A stretch of DNA of 64,000 bases from positions 1-64,000 of IMG/VR virus record IMGVR_UViG_3300050120_000210. One strand, given 5' to 3'. The position numbers and the translations under genes were made by a program. This DNA is from a virus. The notes under the pieces were generated by a model. That model worked only from the letters and a program-made list of their open reading frames with translations, had not been told where the DNA came from and searched no databases. Below are positions 2,216 through 54,645 of this stretch, piece by piece; position 1 is the first letter of the stretch, and each line of letters begins with the position of its first letter.

Positions 2216-3085
2216 ATGAGTTCAACCCCCACACCCGCACCAGTAACCGCCAAGATCAAATACATCAACAACAAGGAATTGCTGTCCGAAATCCACAACA
2301 GCAAGAAATCCTTCTGCTCCTTTATTGAACCGGAGCACGCCAACTTCGACACGATTGTTCACAACGTGTCACAGATCACGCCCACGCTGATCGAAGAAGT
2401 CCGGCTGAAGAAATCCAAGCCTCGGGGAAAGCCAGCCATCCCGCTCGACGATCTGCCGCCTGAAGGCATCGTCGTCCGCGTGATGACCTACGAGCACATC
2501 CCCCTCGACCCGGATCGCGTCCGCAAGAGCCGCGTCACCGACCAATCCTACGCCCGCACCAGTTTCCCGCCTTTCAAGCATTACGTCCTGCTGGCCGATG
2601 GCCCGAAGGAAGTTCTTCGTTCGCATTGGAAAGGCGGCTTCGACAACGGCCACTTCATCGCAGATCAGGGCCGGATCAACAACCGACTCGCGATGATGTT
2701 CATGCTGCTGGTCGAACGCTACTCCCGCCGGGGCAACTGGCGTGGCTACACCTACGTCGATGAAATGCGGAGCCAAGCTCTGCTGCAACTCTCCCAGATC
2801 GGCCTTCAGTTCGACGAATCCAAGTCGGACAATCCGTTTGCGTTCTACACGACTGCGATCCGAAATTGCTTCACAAGGGTCCTCAATCTCGAAAAGAAAT
2901 CGCAGAATATTCGCGATGACTTGCTCATCATGAGCGGCGCCTCTCCCTCTTATACGCGTCAGATCGACAACGAACTTGAGTATCGATTCCCCTCGGAGAA
3001 GTCTGGCGAAGCTCCCAAGCGTAGAGGACCGGGCGCTCCCAAGAAAGTCGTGGCCACAACAGCACCATCCGTGATCGACGATTAA
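2216..3085 (+). CDS. 55: Late-transcription sigma factor, T4 gp55-like
   Basis: A 289-residue protein from the ATG at 2216; a start 12 codons upstream is also open. The core around residues 170-230 (NWRGYTYVDEMRSQALLQL and FAFYTTAIRNCFTRVLN) matches the sigma region 2-like core of gp55, with the basic Lys/Arg-rich C-terminus typical of the family. In T4, gp55 directs host RNA polymerase with the gp45 clamp to TATAAATA promoters. That fits the many NTAAATA boxes before virion genes here. No gp33 or gp45 was recognised in the window. Confidence 0.9.
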   Translation: MSSTPTPAPVTAKIKYINNKELLSEIHNSKKSFCSFIEPEHANFDTIVHNVSQITPTLIEEVRLKKSKPRGKPAIPLDDLPPEGIVVRVMTYEHIPLDPDRVRKSRVTDQSYARTSFPPFKHYVLLADGPKEVLRSHWKGGFDNGHFIADQGRINNRLAMMFMLLVERYSRRGNWRGYTYVDEMRSQALLQLSQIGLQFDESKSDNPFAFYTTAIRNCFTRVLNLEKKSQNIRDDLLIMSGASPSYTRQIDNELEYRFPSEKSGEAPKRRGPGAPKKVVATTAPSVIDD

Positions 3086-8233: not shown

Positions 8234-8277
8234 GGGTCTTCAACAACGGGCCGGTTCGGCTTTTTAAGGGAGAATCC

Positions 8278-8682
8278 ATGACCTTACAATCCGTGAGCCC
8301 TGCCGTCGTTGACGCCGCCATCGCCAAGCAATGGCAGGCTGACAACGCCGTGCACATCAACCCCGACCCGTATGTGATATACAGCGAGTTCGGCGAACTT
8401 ATGGTGCTTGATCGCGCCGGAAAGCCGCATCCGTTTGCGGACTTTTTCAAGTTCAAGAACACCGATTCTTTCACGGCCGCCGATCACAAGCTGACGGCGT
8501 GGCCGAAACATGACGGTGATGAACTGCTGGTCAACACATCCGCCGCCGTCCAAGGCGCCACCGCCTCGACCGCCGTGTCCCATCCGACTTGGCCGGAAGC
8601 GTTCGAGCATTCCGCATTCGCGATCTGCGGTGCGGCGATGTTCGCCGCGTTCGTCATCGGCATGATAAAAATCGCACGATAG
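8278..8682 (+). CDS. Hypothetical protein with C-terminal membrane segment
   Basis: 134 residues from the ATG at 8278, chosen because GGGAGA lies just upstream and the promoter at 8206 would fall inside a longer reading frame. The body is soluble. The C-terminus holds one hydrophobic helix (FAICGAAMFAAFVIGMI) with a short basic tail, so it is probably tail-anchored in the inner membrane. No family is recognised. Confidence 0.65.
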   Translation: MTLQSVSPAVVDAAIAKQWQADNAVHINPDPYVIYSEFGELMVLDRAGKPHPFADFFKFKNTDSFTAADHKLTAWPKHDGDELLVNTSAAVQGATASTAVSHPTWPEAFEHSAFAICGAAMFAAFVIGMIKIAR

Positions 8683-40455: not shown

Positions 40456-41508
40456 ATGCAAGTTCGATCTGCCGACCGCCAAGTCCTTCTCACGAGGGAC
40501 GTATTTCGCGAAGGCGTGTTCGCCCGCGATGGCCACAAATGCGTGTTCTGCGACAAACCGGCCGTAGACGCCCATCACATCCTCGAACGACGCCTATTCG
40601 TCTCGCCCGGCGAGCAAGGCGGCTACTTCATGAACAACGGTGCGTCGGTGTGTGGCGAGCATCACATGGCCTGTGAGATGACCACCATCTCCGTAGAGGA
40701 CGTGCGAATCGCCTGCGGGATCACCAAGCCCGTGATCCCTGCCCATCTCTATTCGGACCATGTTTACGATAAATGGGGCAACGTCGTACTGCCCGATGGC
40801 CGCCGCCTGAAGGGCGAACTGTTCAACGACGCCAGCGTTCAAAAGGTGTTGGGCATGGGCGGCGTGCTCGATCTCTTCACGCATTGGGTGAAATACCCCC
40901 GGACCCATCATCTGCCTTGGTCGGAAGGTCTGACCGAAGATGACCGGATGCTCGACACGCTCGATCACTATCGCGGCAAGCGCGTGATTGTGACTGAGAA
41001 GATGGATGGTGAAAACACCACCATGTATCAGGACTACATCCACGCCCGCAGCTTGGATGGTCGAAATCATTCCTCGCGCAACTGGGTCAAGAACTATTGG
41101 GGCCAGATTTGCGGTGACATTCCCGTGGACTGGCGGCTGTGCGGCGAGAACCTCTTCGCCAAGCATTCGATCACCTACGATGCCCTGCCGACGTATTTCA
41201 TGGGTTTCTCGATGTGGAATGACCGCAACGAGTGCCTGTCGTGGGACGAAACCATCGAATGGTTCACCCTGCTCGGTGTCACGCCGGTGCCAGTGCTGTT
41301 CGACGGCATCTTCGACGAGGCAAAAATCAAGGCGTTGTTCAACGTCAAGGATTGGGAACATCGCGAGGGCTATGTCCTGCGGATCGCCGATGGGTTTACC
41401 TATGGCGAGTTCCGCACTTCGGTATCGAAGTTCGTTCGGAAAAATCATGTCCAAACTGTGAAGCATTGGATGCACGGCAAGCCTGTTGAACAGAATGGGC
41501 TAGCCTGA
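40456..41508 (+). CDS. HNH nuclease fused to RNA ligase
   Basis: 350 residues, ATG after GGAGAAGGGCG. Residues 10-80 form an HNH domain: RDGHKCVFCDKPAVDAHHIL, then NNGASVCGEHH. Residues 130-345 form a ligase of the RNA ligase nucleotidyltransferase family: motif I KMDGEN near 181, a CGENLFAKHSITY block (motif III-like) near 235, EGYVLRIADG (motif IV-like) near 302, and a KFVRK motif V-like near 320. One chain can thus cut and seal nucleic acid. It is coupled to a DEDDh exonuclease. Confidence 0.85.
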   Translation: MQVRSADRQVLLTRDVFREGVFARDGHKCVFCDKPAVDAHHILERRLFVSPGEQGGYFMNNGASVCGEHHMACEMTTISVEDVRIACGITKPVIPAHLYSDHVYDKWGNVVLPDGRRLKGELFNDASVQKVLGMGGVLDLFTHWVKYPRTHHLPWSEGLTEDDRMLDTLDHYRGKRVIVTEKMDGENTTMYQDYIHARSLDGRNHSSRNWVKNYWGQICGDIPVDWRLCGENLFAKHSITYDALPTYFMGFSMWNDRNECLSWDETIEWFTLLGVTPVPVLFDGIFDEAKIKALFNVKDWEHREGYVLRIADGFTYGEFRTSVSKFVRKNHVQTVKHWMHGKPVEQNGLA

Positions 41509-47045: not shown

Positions 47046-47071
47046 TGTCAGCCGAGCTTAGGAGGTTGTCT

Positions 47072-47092
47072 ATGTCACTGCGGGACGCTTGA
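47072..47092 (+). CDS. Six-residue leader peptide upstream of AlaRS-like gene
   Basis: A perfect AGGAGG at 47060-47065 stands 6 bases before an ATG that encodes MSLRDA and stops at TGA (47090-47092). The stop overlaps the TTG start of the AlaRS-like frame (TTGA). Either it is a leader that couples translation, or a -1 frameshift joins it to the main protein. Confidence 0.45.
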   Translation: MSLRDA

Positions 47093-47919
47093 CGCGCCGG
47101 TTCGAAACTTTCTGCGAGACGCGAGGGATTTCGTTCCACCACGAGGATCACGTTCGATCCTATGATTCCACGACGCTGTTCTGCCCGGCGGGTATGCAGC
47201 AGTTCAAATCCCAGTTCCGAGACCCCAACTACCGGGGAACCGTCTCGAACATTCAGGGATGTCTACGCCTCAATGATCTCGATGAGATCGGCGACGGCAC
47301 CCACCTACTCCACTTCGACATGATGGGCTTGTTCTCCTTCCGCGAACTCAGCGTTCAGGATGCGGTGAACTTTTGGTTCGATTTCCTTGAAGAGATCGGC
47401 CTACGTCCAGACACGGTCACGATCCACCCAGATCGTATGGAGGAGTGGCGCGGGCTCTACGACGGCCGCAACGTCATCGTGAAGCCCGATGTGGAATGCA
47501 TCTGGTCGGACGGTGAAATCGGCGGCTATTGCACCGAGTTCTACATCGACGGTGTCGAGATCGGGAACATCGTCAACACCAACGGCGATTGCATCGACGT
47601 GGGCTTCGGCCTTGACCGTCTGTTGTTGTTCCTCGGAGATATCCCACCAGACAGGATCACCGTGCTCCAACGCGGGATCGGCCAGATTATCAAGTCGGGT
47701 TTCGTGCCGGGCAATAAGCAACAGGGCTACACCCTTCGGCGCCTGTTGCGACTTCTAGTGCGTGAGGGAGGCGATCTAGATCATCCGTTCTTCGAAGAAG
47801 AGCGGGTCCGGCAAAATCTTTTGAGAGAAAAGTTTGAGCGCCTGTCGCCCAAACATGGGGACAAACCACCAGAGTGGTGGATGGACACCCACGGTATCGA
47901 GGTATCCGACTTCAGGTAA
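47089..47919 (+). CDS. Alanyl-tRNA synthetase-like catalytic domain, stand-alone
   Basis: 276 residues against about 875 for AlaRS. The class II catalytic core of AlaRS is recognisable: LFCPAGMQQFKSQF (AlaRS TNAGMxQFK) near 31, GCLRLNDLDEIG near 59, HFDMMGLFSFRE near 76 (FEMLGNFSF), IGGYCTEFYIDG near 144, and motif 3 IDVGFGLDRLL near 169, which keeps the Asp that holds the alanine amino group. It ends just after QGYTLRRLLRLLVREGG, the start of the tRNA-recognition part. Editing and C-Ala domains are absent. The acceptor may be a tRNA or another molecule. Confidence 0.8.
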   Translation: MTRRFETFCETRGISFHHEDHVRSYDSTTLFCPAGMQQFKSQFRDPNYRGTVSNIQGCLRLNDLDEIGDGTHLLHFDMMGLFSFRELSVQDAVNFWFDFLEEIGLRPDTVTIHPDRMEEWRGLYDGRNVIVKPDVECIWSDGEIGGYCTEFYIDGVEIGNIVNTNGDCIDVGFGLDRLLLFLGDIPPDRITVLQRGIGQIIKSGFVPGNKQQGYTLRRLLRLLVREGGDLDHPFFEEERVRQNLLREKFERLSPKHGDKPPEWWMDTHGIEVSDFR

Positions 47920-49936: not shown

Positions 49937-50143
49937 TTACGACTTCTTCTCTTCGGCAACCTCTTCGTCGGCCTTGTCTTTCTTTTTGGTCTTGGTTTTC
50001 TTATTGATGCGGACCCGAACGTGCACGAATCGGAAAATCCGAGCGATGGCCGCGATAATCAAGAAACAGGCCACGAAGTGCCAGAAACCGCCGGACACGC
50101 TATAGGTGACCAACCATTCTACGAGTTCTTTGATCGCTTCCAT
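49937..50143 (-). CDS. Small membrane protein
   Basis: 68 residues. One hydrophobic helix (GFWHFVACFLIIAAIARIF) is followed by a strongly basic then acidic tail (RINKKTKTKKKDKADEEVAEEKKS). It starts at the macro-domain gene's stop (TGATG). Topology suggests a cytoplasmic charged tail. Function unknown. Confidence 0.65.
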   Translation of the reverse strand: MEAIKELVEWLVTYSVSGGFWHFVACFLIIAAIARIFRFVHVRVRINKKTKTKKKDKADEEVAEEKKS

Positions 50144-50658
50144 CAGGCGGCAACCACGTCGGCTTCAACCCCATCGGGGATGAGCCCGTCGAAAAGATAA
50201 ACGACCGGCTGCCAGTTCTTGGATTCCTCTTCGAGGATTTCGGCGATCACTGACCATTTGCCCTGAGCCAATCCGGCGCCGATCAGAGGAAGAGCCATGG
50301 CCACCGGCGGCGAGAAATCGAAAGACTTGATCGACTTGGCGTGTTCGTCGATTTTCTTCATCGCTTCGCGCAATCCTGCGTAGCTGACGTAGACGACGCC
50401 CGGCTCGCGGCCGTAGAACTCTTGCGAGATGACGTTGACGACGGTCTTGGCCAGAGCGGCGCTCGGAACCCAGATCACTTCACCGACCTTGAGACCCTGA
50501 TCCTCGTAGACCTTGCGGTAATCCGAGAACACTTTCTCGTCGGCATCGCGCAGCAGCTTGGCGACCCCGGAGCCCATGACACCTTGGGCGTTGCACCCTT
50601 GAATGATGAACTTCTCTTCCGCCTTGAGCAGATCACCGTGCTTGTAGATGATTTTCAT
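50143..50658 (-). CDS. Macro domain protein (ADP-ribose-binding/hydrolase)
   Basis: 171 residues from the ATG at 50658. It has macro-domain features: KHGDLLK near 6-12, IIQGCNAQGVMGSGVAKLLR near 18-37 (the Asn and Gly-rich ADP-ribose loop), and ALPLIGAGLAQGKW near 124-137. It could remove ADP-ribose from DNA or protein, or hydrolyse ADP-ribose 1''-phosphate or O-acetyl-ADP-ribose. It lies between two small membrane proteins and close to two NADAR genes. Confidence 0.85.
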   Translation of the reverse strand: MKIIYKHGDLLKAEEKFIIQGCNAQGVMGSGVAKLLRDADEKVFSDYRKVYEDQGLKVGEVIWVPSAALAKTVVNVISQEFYGREPGVVYVSYAGLREAMKKIDEHAKSIKSFDFSPPVAMALPLIGAGLAQGKWSVIAEILEEESKNWQPVVYLFDGLIPDGVEADVVAA

Positions 50659-50996
50659 TTTCCGTCCTCGATCTCGGCCATCTTGCGTTTGAACCAAGCG
50701 TCCTGCTTGGCATGTTTCCGGCGGAAATGCAGTCGCATAGCTTGCCGCATGTCCCATCCATCGATGTAACCGCAGAAAACGGCCACGAACATCAATCCGG
50801 CGCCCTGCCACCACGGGATGATTTTACCGTCGAGCGCCGACGCATAGATCGTCAAGAAGGCGGCGCCGCCAACGACCAAGCTCCATTTCATCCGCCAGAG
50901 GTTCCAGAAAATGAACCAGATGATCGTCCACGCGACGATCTGAATCTCTTGTAGGAGATTGAAGTGGATTTTCGTAGGTTCCGTCACGTCTGTCAT
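50655..50996 (-). CDS. Membrane protein with two to three spans
   Basis: 113 residues from the ATG at 50996. Hydrophobic stretches IQIVAWTIIWFIFWNLW, WSLVVGGAAFLTIYASAL and GAGLMFVAVFCGYI are followed by a basic C-terminal tail. It is coupled to the macro-domain gene by a 4-base overlap. Function unknown. Confidence 0.65.
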   Translation of the reverse strand: MTDVTEPTKIHFNLLQEIQIVAWTIIWFIFWNLWRMKWSLVVGGAAFLTIYASALDGKIIPWWQGAGLMFVAVFCGYIDGWDMRQAMRLHFRRKHAKQDAWFKRKMAEIEDGK

Positions 50997-51280
50997 TACC
51001 ACGCCTTGGCAGGGGCTTGCTTCGATAGTACCCAACGCACCTCGCTATTGGACCATCGGGCGTAGAAGTACCCTTTTCCCTCGTCGTCCAACAGGGCTTT
51101 CTCGGCATCAGTAAGGTCTTGATGCTTCAGACCCATCCGGCCTTCGCGATAGACCACCGCATCGTCGGCCAGCATGTCGTAGACAACCTTGACGACATAG
51201 GTTGCTTCTTCACGAGCACGGCGCTCTTTTTCTTCCGTGATGGTTTTTGGCCGGGCGGCCCAGTTGATGCGTTGGGTCAT
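50996..51280 (-). CDS. Hypothetical helical protein
   Basis: 94 residues, start overlapping the stop of the NADAR gene (ATGA). Charged helix (KTITEEKERRAREEATYVVK) then a compact segment ending in Trp-rich loops. No family recognised. Confidence 0.6.
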   Translation of the reverse strand: MTQRINWAARPKTITEEKERRAREEATYVVKVVYDMLADDAVVYREGRMGLKHQDLTDAEKALLDDEGKGYFYARWSNSEVRWVLSKQAPAKAW

Positions 51281-51738
51281 GACTTTCCCGATTGGAGGCG
51301 AGCCCGAATCTTCGTCAGGCGAGAACAAAACTCGCGCTCGGTCAACACGGTTTCACGCGCATCATTTTTGCCGATTGCATGGGTCAGGTTGGACGAACCG
51401 GTCGCCAGTAGCGCCCGACGAAACCCGTCGTTCTCTGCCAATGCGTCGAACGCATCATCCAACAGAGTTTGATATTCGTCGCCGTGACGATCAAAGGCGA
51501 CACCGGCCCACCAAAGGGTCTGTCGCTGTTTCCACGCCTTGTTGCGTTTCTGGCCACGACGTTTCGCGGCGAGACCGACGAGCTTGCAGACTTCGACTTG
51601 GATGTGGACCTTGTCGAACTTGAACGCCTGAACCAGTCCTTCCATGGAGTTGCACTCCACCCCTCGGAAGACGAAGGGATGTGGGGAGAAATTGCTCAGT
51701 TTGTCTGCGGGCCAGCCTTTGCCCGAGCCAATGTCCAT
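51277..51738 (-). CDS. NADAR-family protein 1
   Basis: 153 residues. NADAR/YbiA-like signature: LSNFSPHPFVFRGVECNSMEG near 14-34, a QAFKF helix, then KQRQTLWWAGVAFDRHGDEYQ near 70-90 and LLATGSSNLTHAIGKNDARE near 110-129. NADAR proteins act on N-glycosidic bonds of ADP-ribose-type molecules; the NADAR of DarG1 removes ADP-ribose from guanine in DNA. Here it stands alone without a toxin. A paralogue is at 52060. Confidence 0.75.
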   Translation of the reverse strand: MDIGSGKGWPADKLSNFSPHPFVFRGVECNSMEGLVQAFKFDKVHIQVEVCKLVGLAAKRRGQKRNKAWKQRQTLWWAGVAFDRHGDEYQTLLDDAFDALAENDGFRRALLATGSSNLTHAIGKNDARETVLTEREFCSRLTKIRARLQSGKS

Positions 51739-52001
51739 TATGAGTCCGCCTTGACCAAGAAACGATCTGCGGCCACTGCACGGACCATGCCAGAAAAGAA
51801 TGGCGTCATGAACTCGACGGCAAGAGCGTGGGCCTTGCCGACCATGTAGCTATCGACGATCTCTCCCGAATACGAACCGATCATCCCGATCATGGCATCG
51901 TCTTCGTTGGCCGAATGCTCGGGATTGAAGCGTGCACGACGGCCGATCCACGCCTTAGCCTGTTCTTCGGTCTCGGCTACTGGAACGATCTCGGAAGACA
52001 T
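51738..52001 (-). CDS. Hypothetical protein between the NADAR genes
   Basis: 87 residues from the ATG at 52001. A short acidic start, then AWIGRRARFNPEHSANEDDAMIGMIG, suggesting a small beta-barrel-like fold. It overlaps NADAR 1 (TAATG). Function unknown. Confidence 0.55.
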   Translation of the reverse strand: MSSEIVPVAETEEQAKAWIGRRARFNPEHSANEDDAMIGMIGSYSGEIVDSYMVGKAHALAVEFMTPFFSGMVRAVAADRFLVKADS

Positions 52002-52059
52002 GATTTCGCTTTCGGAAAATCTCGTATGCGAAAACATTTACGACCATATAATCTAATGG

Positions 52060-52548
52060 TCAAGTTGCTTCGCCTGCTACCACTGCCTGTTGAACGCGAG
52101 CACGCAGCCTATACATATTGTAGATGTATTCCCACTCGGTCAGCGTTGTCCGTGTTGGATCATGATGTCCAATAACGTGGGTCAACAAGTCCACGCCAGT
52201 CTCGAACAAAGACTGGCGGAAGATTGGGTTTTGATCGAAGCAGGCATCGTAACCGCGTTCGATCAAGGTATGGAATTCACGAGACAATCTCGGATATGCC
52301 TTACCTCTCCACCACAGGGTTTGGGTATCTCGCCAGTCGTTCCCAACCTGTCCGACTTTGTAGGCTCTGTAGCCCACAAGAACTGCGATCATTTCTTGTT
52401 CTTCAAGCCCTTCGAACTTGAGAGATTGCAGCCAGCCTTCGATCCCGCCGCACTGAACGCCATCCATGACGAAGGGATATGACGCGAAGTTAGAAAGCGC
52501 CTTTCCGAGCCCGCCATTTCGGGAACCAAGATCGAGAATTGCAGTCAT
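52060..52548 (-). CDS. NADAR-family protein 2
   Basis: 162 residues. The same blocks as NADAR 1 are present: LSNFASYPFVMDGVQCGGIEGW near 18-39, QSLKF, then DWRDTQTLWWRGKAYPRLSREF near 75-96 and GVDLLTHVIGHHDPTRTTLTE near 120-140. The two genes are diverged paralogues in one operon. Two copies may have different ADP-ribosyl targets, or one may be a sensor. Confidence 0.75.
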   Translation of the reverse strand: MTAILDLGSRNGGLGKALSNFASYPFVMDGVQCGGIEGWLQSLKFEGLEEQEMIAVLVGYRAYKVGQVGNDWRDTQTLWWRGKAYPRLSREFHTLIERGYDACFDQNPIFRQSLFETGVDLLTHVIGHHDPTRTTLTEWEYIYNMYRLRARVQQAVVAGEAT

Positions 52549-52677
52549 CTAGCCACCTCTAGAAACAAGATAGCCCCCATCTATTGTGGGGTCAAAATTC
52601 AACATTATGATAACCGACGATTTCATGCGGGTGCCGGTTTTCCATTAACAACCTTGAACTTTTTTCTTGACGAACGG
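52549..52677. other. Divergent regulatory region between NADAR 2 and the MucR-like gene
   Basis: About 130 AT-rich bases. GGCTATCTTGTTTCTAGAGG-like sequence on the minus strand precedes NADAR 2, and CCCC/GGGG around 52577-52592 can form a small hairpin. TTGACG (52667) and TTGACA (52678) occur in tandem for the plus strand. AT-rich DNA is the usual MucR target, so autoregulation is possible. Confidence 0.4.
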
Positions 52678-52706
52678 TTGACAGCAAATGCAGGCCAAGT
52701 TACTTG
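52678..52706 (+). promoter_or_regulatory. Probable promoter of the MucR-like gene
   Basis: TTGACA at 52678-52683, a 17-bp spacer, then TACTTG at 52701-52706. The -35 is consensus but the -10 is poor. It argues for the downstream ATG at 52748. Confidence 0.4.
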
Positions 52707-52747
52707 CTGAAATCCCTACCGCTGCTTTCCAACAGGAGTGCCCTTAT

Positions 52748-53335
52748 ATGCAGCAATCGGAAGGCGGAAACGCCCAATTCAAGACTGAGATGGCCGTGAG
52801 CATGTTCAATGCTTACGCGGCCAACAACCACGTCGCCGCCACGGAAATTCCGGGTCTCATGGCGACCTTCTCCAAGGAACTGGACGTTCTGATGAACGTG
52901 GCGGCCCCCGCCACCGAACTGGAAAAGAAGGAACCTGCGGTCGCGATCCGCAAGTCCGTCACCCCGGATCACATCATCGACCTGTTCACCGGCCGCAAGT
53001 TCAAGTCCCTGAAGCGTTACCTCCGCACGTCGCACAACATGACGCCGGAGCAGTATCGCGCCTACTGGAACCTGCCGAAGGACTACCCGATGGTCGCCCC
53101 GGCCTACGCGCAACGTCGTTCCGACCTCGCGAAGTCCATGGGTCTCGGCCAAGGTGGGCGCCAGCCCGCCAAGACGGCTCCCGCCGCCGCTGAAGCGCCG
53201 AAGGCTCCCAAGGCCGCCGCCCCCAAGAAGGCCGCTGCCCCGAAAGCTCCGAAAGCCGCCAAGGCCCCGAAGGCTCCCGCTGCTGCCGCCGCTCCGGCTG
53301 AAGCTCCGGCCGCGTCGGAAACCGTCGCTTCCTAA
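52748..53335 (+). CDS. MucR/Ros-family regulator with histone-like tail
   Basis: 195 residues from the ATG at 52748 (GGAG upstream; an ATG at 52688 would lie in the promoter). The MucR core is clear: IRKSVTPDHIIDLFTGRKFK, SLKRYLRTSHNMTPEQYRAYW, LPKDYPMVAPAYAQRRSDLA. The zinc-finger cysteines are replaced (DLFT in place of CLEC), as in zinc-free Ros homologues. The last 60 residues are Ala/Pro/Lys repeats like histone H1 tails. MucR proteins are alphaproteobacterial H-NS-like silencers. Confidence 0.85.
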   Translation: MQQSEGGNAQFKTEMAVSMFNAYAANNHVAATEIPGLMATFSKELDVLMNVAAPATELEKKEPAVAIRKSVTPDHIIDLFTGRKFKSLKRYLRTSHNMTPEQYRAYWNLPKDYPMVAPAYAQRRSDLAKSMGLGQGGRQPAKTAPAAAEAPKAPKAAAPKKAAAPKAPKAAKAPKAPAAAAAPAEAPAASETVAS

Positions 53336-53362
53336 GCGCCAGTTTCGATCCTACCAAGACAG

Positions 53363-53393
53363 AGGCCGCCGGGGTGACTCGGCGGCCTTTTTC
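53363..53393 (+). terminator. Rho-independent terminator after the MucR-like gene
   Basis: AGGCCGCCG/CGGCGGCCT stem with an 8-base loop, followed by TTTTTC. Confidence 0.92.
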
Positions 53394-53431
53394 GTGCCTG
53401 AAATTATATTTGGACTTTGCTTACGGCCGTG

Positions 53432-53438
53432 CTAAATA
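53432..53438 (+). promoter_or_regulatory. Late promoter box CTAAATA
   Basis: CGTGCTAAATAGAATC about 55 bases before the NMNAT-Nudix start. It suggests that the NAD+ cluster is at least partly expressed late. Confidence 0.5.
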
Positions 53439-53490
53439 GAATCTAACAGTGGGAACAAACTCACTGGCCATACACATAGAAGGATTTTCT

Positions 53491-54645
53491 ATGGCCCATA
53501 TCACCCGTGCGCGGGAACATGACATTTGCGTCTTCATTGGACGCTTTCAACCCTTGCACGCTGGACATATGGGCGTGATTCTCAAGGCGTTGGAATACGC
53601 CGAGTTCCTCTTCATTCTCATCGGCTCTGCCAACGTCGCCCGTCGTCCTGACGCCAATCCCTTTTTCGCGGCCGAACGCATCGAGATGCTGCTCGCGTCT
53701 CTGCCGCCAGAGGCGCGCGAGCGAGTGATCTTCATTCCCATGGAAGATAGTGACTACGAAACTATCGATTGGGTGAATGCGGTCAACCGCGCCGTGACGA
53801 CCGAAGCGATCAAGATCATGGGCAAGCTCGATTCGAGCATCAGCCTGATCGGCCACTCCAAAGACCACACGTCTTTCTACCTGAAGCTCTTCCCGCAGTG
53901 GAACACTATCGACGTGGTGTCTTCTCGTCCCCTCGACGCGACCATACTGCGGAATCAGTTCTTCACGGGCAACACGGCTGTCGTCGATAACATGTTCCGC
54001 TACGCCGTGGAAAACCAAGACATCCCGCTAGGCGCCATCAACTGGCTGCGAGACTTCCAAAAACTGGATGTCTATGGCGAACTCGTCGAAGAGATGGAGT
54101 TCTATCGATCCTGTCACGCCCGTTGGGATGCGGAATCGTGGCCTGCGAGCCGCAACACTGTCACCGGTGATGCTCTGATTCTGCAATCCAACCATGTCCT
54201 GCTGATCCAGCGCGGTGAGTTCCCTCAGAAGGGAACGTGGGGTATGCCCGGCGGCCACACCAATACGAACGAAACTGTTGCCGATTCTGCGCTGCGCGAA
54301 GGCTACGAAGAGACCGGCATCAAAGTGCCCAAGATCGTTTTCGAAAAGGCGTTCGTCGGCAAAGACTATTTCGATGCTCCCCGCCGCGATCCGCGTGGCC
54401 GGTATATCGGACACGTCTTCATGTATCACTTGCAACCTTCGGCGCCGTCCTACGACACCACCAAGTCGCCTGTGGAGAACCGTCGCCGGGTGAAGGACGC
54501 GTTGTCTCTGCCGAAGGTGAAGGGCATGGACGACGCCATGGGTGCCAAGTGGTGGCACCTCGACGACCTCAAGCGGTCTGAGATGTTCTTGGACCACTAT
54601 TCCATCATTCGCAAAATGACTGCCCAGTTCGGGAAGGGAAATTAA
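53491..54645 (+). CDS. nadM: Bifunctional mononucleotide adenylyltransferase-Nudix (NadM/Nudix type)
   Basis: 384 residues from the ATG at 53491 with AAGGA upstream. The N-terminal 200 residues form an NMNAT: CVFIGRFQPLHAGHMGVI near 13 (GxFxPxHxGH), LIGSANVARRPD, and DATILRNQFF near 165 (SxTxxR-like). The C-terminal Nudix domain has WGMPGGHTNTNET...LREGYEETGI near 250-273. It joins ATP to NMN or nicotinate mononucleotide; the Nudix half may degrade ADP-ribose. Phage KVP40 NatV has the same design. Confidence 0.88.
   Translation: MAHITRAREHDICVFIGRFQPLHAGHMGVILKALEYAEFLFILIGSANVARRPDANPFFAAERIEMLLASLPPEARERVIFIPMEDSDYETIDWVNAVNRAVTTEAIKIMGKLDSSISLIGHSKDHTSFYLKLFPQWNTIDVVSSRPLDATILRNQFFTGNTAVVDNMFRYAVENQDIPLGAINWLRDFQKLDVYGELVEEMEFYRSCHARWDAESWPASRNTVTGDALILQSNHVLLIQRGEFPQKGTWGMPGGHTNTNETVADSALREGYEETGIKVPKIVFEKAFVGKDYFDAPRRDPRGRYIGHVFMYHLQPSAPSYDTTKSPVENRRRVKDALSLPKVKGMDDAMGAKWWHLDDLKRSEMFLDHYSIIRKMTAQFGKGN

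Follow-up and report, generated by a model that had tools for sequence, protein, structure and literature searches.

The window, a stretch of 64,000 nucleotides from the virus record IMGVR_UViG_3300050120_000210 (149,124 bases in all, and possibly a fragment), contains a gene whose product resembles alanyl-tRNA synthetase (AlaRS). The coding frame of this gene is preceded by a Shine-Dalgarno sequence and by an ATG that opens a different, very short frame, and the coordinates of these features are collected in Table 1. Elsewhere in the window, an HNH-like N-terminal part and an RNA ligase domain are combined in one frame (40456-41508). Moreover, a macro-domain protein, two gp30.3-like (Phage_30_3) proteins, a ROS/MucR-type regulator and a nucleotidyltransferase-NUDIX protein are clustered at 50143-54645, an assemblage that is suggestive of NAD/ADP-ribose metabolism or counter-defence.

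Table 1. Features of the AlaRS-like gene and its start region, in window coordinates.
Feature	Position	Strand	Basis
Shine-Dalgarno AGGAGG, 6 nt 5' of ATG 47072	47060..47065	+	Direct reading; relatives with Shine-Dalgarno-type starts fall in the same spacing class
Conserved 18-base start module TATGTCACTGCGGGACGC	47071..47088	+	Comparison with relatives; occurs once in the 149-kb record
Start ATG and short frame MSLRDA-stop, one frame off the AlaRS-like frame	47072..47092	+	ATG kept in relatives
Candidate -1 slip site CGG GAC GCT	47081..47089	+	Inferred from the X-XAY-GCN rule (23/23 instances)
AlaRS-like coding frame, 276 codons from TTG plus stop	47089..47919	+	Profile, structure-model and fold matches
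Class II motif 2 region, residues 60-84	47266..47340	+	Arg60, His72 and Met78 invariant
Class II motif 3, residues 168-181	47590..47631	+	Contains alanine-binding Asp170
Shortened tRNA-recognition domain, residues 196-276	47674..47916	+	Second Pfam stretch, profile positions 281-320; host-type AlaRS aligns co-linearly
Peptide DTHG, residues 266-269, counterpart of the cellular G3:U70-reading peptide	47884..47895	+	Alignment; PMC6451123

It is well supported that the gene is real and that it encodes an AlaRS-type enzyme. A preliminary description, made from the sequence alone, had proposed kinship to AlaRS and suggested a profile search as a check, and with the 276-residue frame this search returned Pfam tRNA-synt_2c (PF01411) at 70.6 bits (E=1.3e-19), above the cut-off of 30.3. 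The curated equivalog TIGR00344 gave 75.5 bits, which is below its cut-off of 457. AlaRS crystal structures were matched by phmmer (E=2.8e-13) and by the family profile (E=1.2e-23). An AlphaFold model, for which 32 phage sequences were aligned as input, has a confident fold (pLDDT 89.4, pTM 0.82), and its top Foldseek matches are AlaRS throughout (E=8e-14). The catalytic domain of the protein is that of a class II AlaRS and includes motifs 1-3 as well as the alanine-binding aspartate of motif 3, D170. This residue, together with R60, H72, F76, M78, W139, N160, G172 and R177, aligns with its counterpart in host-type AlaRS and is invariant in 32/32 phage sequences. The kinship, the class II motifs and the retained aspartate of the preliminary description are all borne out in this way.

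Its further statements, that the protein is reduced to the catalytic core and ends where tRNA recognition begins, do not hold. Alignment to the 883-residue AlaRS of a Caulobacteraceae genome extends co-linearly as far as residue 400 or so, and the phage protein has lost loops at several sites. A P-x-N...GY..RR..R segment is retained after motif 3, residues from about 196 to 276 align with the recognition domain of AlaRS, and the C-terminal end of the phage protein, WWMDTHG, aligns to KLYDTYG of the cellular enzyme. In the structure of A. fulgidus AlaRS with tRNA, a Y-(D/E)-(S/T)-(H/Y)-G peptide reads the G3:U70 base pair (PMC6451123); the phage peptide is M-D-T-H-G, within a shortened domain. 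The preliminary description was right that the editing and oligomerisation domains are missing. The editing domain tRNA_SAD (PF07973) was found neither in the phage protein nor in any of the 15 phage records searched, and the C-terminal oligomerisation domain is likewise absent from the protein. Judged by alignment, the phage protein corresponds to AlaRS residues 1 to about 400 in compacted form, ending at the putative G3:U70-reading peptide. The aspartate of this peptide is not universal among the 32 phage sequences (25 have Asp, 3 Glu, 2 Asn and 2 Ser), and P-x-N retains its asparagine in 17/32. With the former replaced in 7/32 sequences and the latter lost in about half, some members may hence read tRNA differently.

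A scan of viral contigs gave 58 loci with relatives of the AlaRS-like gene, and a genome scan gave three more in metagenome-assembled genomes; a Caulobacteraceae contig shows 69% identity. A relative is also contained in the 634-kb uncultured phage record LR745206. The contigs searched may be incomplete, and the E-values of the locus searches are relative. In a tree, which was another check named in advance, the phage members cluster together and are distant from the sole cellular AlaRS taken in. The deep branches are without resolution, so the tree does not separate one origin of the start module within the AlaRS-like family from repeated origins.

The start of the AlaRS frame requires a separate account. 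From the ATG the window reads ATG TCA CTG CGG GAC GCT TGA (47072-47092), and the AlaRS frame lies one base back. TTG 47089, the start given in the preliminary description, is in the AlaRS frame but is 23 nt from the ribosome-binding site. This start is probably wrong, as the ribosome-binding site and an ATG lie upstream in another frame, an arrangement that the description missed, and relatives with this arrangement lack ATG, GTG and TTG at the position of the TTG, where codons such as CTG (L062 and L064), CTA, AAT or ATT stand. No Rfam family, frameshift families included, reached threshold around the start.

Most AlaRS-like relatives have an ordinary ATG directly 5' of the AlaRS frame, and the enzyme as such therefore does not need recoding. 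A directly preceding ATG is absent from the window and from L001, L002, L005/L006, L008, L010, L048, L053, L059, L062 and L064, and in L001, L002, L008, L010, L048, L059, L062 and L064 no ATG, GTG or TTG was found close to where the AlaRS frame opens. The out-of-frame ATG is kept in 9/9 AlaRS-like instances found by protein homology (L001 has GTG), and in the window and about ten relatives its frame ends after 6 to 18 codons. Over codons 1-35 of the AlaRS-like frame, which precede the first in-frame methionine, substitutions number 107 at third positions versus 68 and 49 at the others, as expected of a frame that is translated upstream of that methionine. Most carriers have one copy of the start signal, and three AlaRS-like records with ordinary starts (G015, G016 and G017) have none.

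The same signal, ATG-xxx-xxG-CNX-XAY-GCN, was also found 5' of other genes of large phages in a search with the 18-base pattern. These include a family of small proteins (about 110-130 residues) unrelated to AlaRS, the homologues of which were gathered by protein similarity to escape the bias of pattern searching. This collection comprises 29 loci, of which L230 and L231 were uninformative and were left out; the signal is present in 25 of the remaining 27. The two exceptions, L228 and L229, are AT-rich and have an ordinary in-frame ATG without the signal. In 23 of the 25 signal carriers the small-protein gene lies in the -1 frame relative to this ATG. Distant homologues occur in the cultured phages ACF1, X1 and XacN1, and the ACF1 copy has an ordinary in-frame ATG.

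The small proteins (L203-L227, for example L203:3001-3369; L102:5458-5826, L104, L155 and L189) are about 110-150 residues long and share the motif NL.V.MW.ED...G...K.ELY...PHWWLD. Many members are located in tRNA arrays of large phages. The family has no Pfam match, and a fold search gave nothing significant. In L207 and L208, which are alike, a second frame break lies 3' of the start signal (about 3040-3070) and runs the same way in both contigs. At five further loci (L075, rc 1550; L089, rc 3741; L095:1546; L073:4914; L134:1298) the signal is present, there is no in-frame start codon and the gene was not recognised as AlaRS. LYDTYG-like strings had suggested a split AlaRS, composed of a core and the small-protein family, but records with the small-protein family gave no AlaRS match. 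The frame-0 peptide of the module, YDTAGR, resembles the YDTYG motif of AlaRS and was treated as a coincidence. Many matches of the 18-base pattern are chance coding matches, namely those in YETAGRK structural-type proteins, YETAERNT proteins, RHS-like repeats, the L070 group, L101 and L103. They were discarded, as either the open frame extends far upstream or the start context is absent.

Conservation of the signal was assessed only on the set found by homology, as pattern scans favour sequences that resemble the pattern. This set was hand-picked and contains 23 instances (20 distinct 18-mers) from the two families, repeats and the degenerate L001 having been left out. The ATG, the GC at module positions 10-11, A15 and the GC at positions 17-18 are invariant. 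Moreover, position 13 is identical to position 14 in 23/23 instances, the combinations being A-AAC, G-GAC, C-CAA or A-AAA. Translated in the frame of the ATG, the signal gives M-x-x-[LR]-[NDKQ]-Ala.

In both the AlaRS-like and the small-protein families, the coding region runs on in the -1 frame and the sequence at the putative recoding site is conserved. These observations are best read as recoding, by which translation that starts at ATG 47072 would enter the AlaRS frame of the window. A ribosome would initiate at this ATG, in the frame neighbouring that of AlaRS, the tRNA on codon 5 (GAC) would re-pair on GGA with a shift of -1, and CGC followed by the AlaRS-like frame would then be read, to yield a product of about 282 residues. 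In general terms, the step would be a re-pairing of XAY on XXA within about five codons of the ATG, and ribosomes that do not shift would terminate after 6 to 18 codons. We infer the exact step and codon from the identity of positions 13 and 14, with which a codon-5 tRNA slipping by -1 would keep its first base pair. The site, G_CNX_XAY, lacks a classical X_XXY_YYZ slippery heptamer and preserves the X-XA identity alone. Against such a slip, the re-pairing of GAC on GGA is weak, the invariant GC at positions 10-11 is not accounted for, and an in-frame TTG does exist in the window.

This TTG is the basis of a different explanation, in which TTG 47089 or a different non-AUG codon serves as the start of the AlaRS frame and the mini-frame of the out-of-frame ATG is a regulatory leader or incidental. 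TTG is able to start genes, and at this site L062 and L064 carry CTG. It is nevertheless rather unlikely, as other relatives have codons such as CTA, AAT and ATT there, the spacing of the ribosome-binding site suits the ATG (6 nt) and not the TTG, and the same frame offset recurs 5' of unrelated genes. It is also possible, albeit quite unlikely, that recoding takes another route, for example a 7-nt backward hop from one invariant GCN codon of the module to the other, or a shift of +2. In 23/23 instances both GC dinucleotides are kept at a spacing of 7 nt, and a movement of -7 leads to the frame that -1 would reach, but the hop leaves the equally constant X-XA identity unexplained, and backward ribosomal hops of this kind are rare.

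The genomic setting of the family is translational. Relatives of the AlaRS-like gene sit in tRNA arrays, several of them together with a phage tRNA-Ala, and tRNA-Ala with G3:U70 is found near L001, L002, L008, L010, L012, L015 and L059. The tRNA-Ala of L005 and L053 also has G3:U70, which was read by eye after a script had misaligned both, their CCA end being encoded. A tRNA called Ala was present in 10 of the 20 searched sources that have any tRNA gene. Such large phages commonly have tRNA-Ala in general, and its co-occurrence with the AlaRS-like gene is therefore supporting and not strong evidence. The 508-kb contig L001 has genes for HisRS-like and PheRS-like proteins, a class II core, TyrRS and IF3 inside 16 kb, along with 11 tRNA genes, two of which are called tRNA-Ala. 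The phage of the window itself encodes tRNA-Val, tRNA-Asn and tRNA-Cys, located beyond the window. It also encodes a 420-residue ThrRS without the N-terminal (TGS/editing) region (L067:7215-8477, minus strand; listed as G000:111524-112135), which exceeds the cut-off of NCBIfam thrS and matches from profile position 169 onward. ARAGORN listed no tmRNA in the loci searched for tRNAs.

Given its domains and its setting, the protein is likely to be a miniature, editing-free AlaRS with a predicted activity of charging tRNA-Ala. The preliminary description had entertained other roles, in which alanine is activated but handed to a peptide, a DNA base or a small molecule, or in which the protein depletes alanine or senses alanine or tRNA-Ala. 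The protein is small, the residues that read G3:U70 vary in some members and the tRNA gene search of the 149-kb record, which may be a fragment, gave no tRNA-Ala. These roles gained no support and are improbable, in view of the retained recognition domain with its DTHG peptide, the location of relatives among tRNA and synthetase genes, and the neighbourhood examined, in which no modification genes were seen.

That the frame offset stems from assembly errors or pseudogenes is hardly credible: single members do have breaks of the homopolymer type, but an identical offset recurs at one and the same position in many contigs of different samples and in two unrelated families, and the substitution pattern downstream is of the coding type. 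The break seen in L056 (about 8250-8280), where the AlaRS-like frame is interrupted at a run of seven T, is probably an assembly error, but may be a slippery site.

The overall reading favoured here, to which a probability of roughly 0.6 is assigned, is that the gene encodes a phage-specific, miniature editing-free AlaRS that would activate alanine with ATP and charge tRNA-Ala, either of the host or of a phage that has its own, in support of phage translation, and that in the window and about ten relatives it would be expressed by way of an out-of-frame ATG and a -1 shift. The codon in the waiting A site would always be one for alanine, which may hint at sensitivity to the supply of alanyl-tRNA. 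A bolder and doubtful extension is that large phages share a start-proximal frameshift switch that senses a shortage of alanyl-tRNA. Stalling at Ala codon 6 would promote the -1 slip and thereby synthesis of the downstream protein, translation otherwise ending at the stop, and some of these switches may control the mini-AlaRS and so give feedback on the charging of tRNA-Ala.

The closest known enzyme is bacterial AlaRS (alaS; PF01411, TIGR00344), with which the phage protein shares the class II fold, motifs 1-3, the alanine pocket, the P-x-N/RR segment and a putative G3:U70-reading peptide of the DTYG type. It differs in having 276 residues compared with the 883 of the host-type enzyme, with shortened loops and recognition domain and without editing and C-terminal domains. 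Programmed ribosomal frameshifting is exemplified by prfB (+1) and dnaX (-1), and the phage arrangement resembles it in its conserved out-of-frame coding, upstream Shine-Dalgarno sequence and slip-type X-XAY site. Unlike these systems, the phage site lies inside the first five codons, such that the Shine-Dalgarno sequence doubles as the initiation signal, and the signal is common to unrelated genes and is without a classical heptamer. The main text of the huge-phage study of Al-Shayeb et al. 2020 describes phage-encoded synthetases beside tRNA arrays, as are the AlaRS-like relatives, and the words 'alanyl' and 'frameshift' are absent from that main text (PMC7162821). No report of a miniaturised phage AlaRS or of the out-of-frame start arrangement was found in the open-licence papers searched.

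The out-of-frame start common to unrelated genes is rated as more surprising than the enzyme, which by itself is moderately interesting. The enzyme would add an AlaRS of fewer than 300 residues, compared with the 441-residue E. coli catalytic fragment in the PDB, and would offer a tool for defining the minimum needed to read G3:U70. If a frameshift signal common to unrelated phage genes does coincide with the initiation site, such genes would carry wrong annotations of their starts and first residues, and large phages would possess a compact and testable switch for the control of translation.
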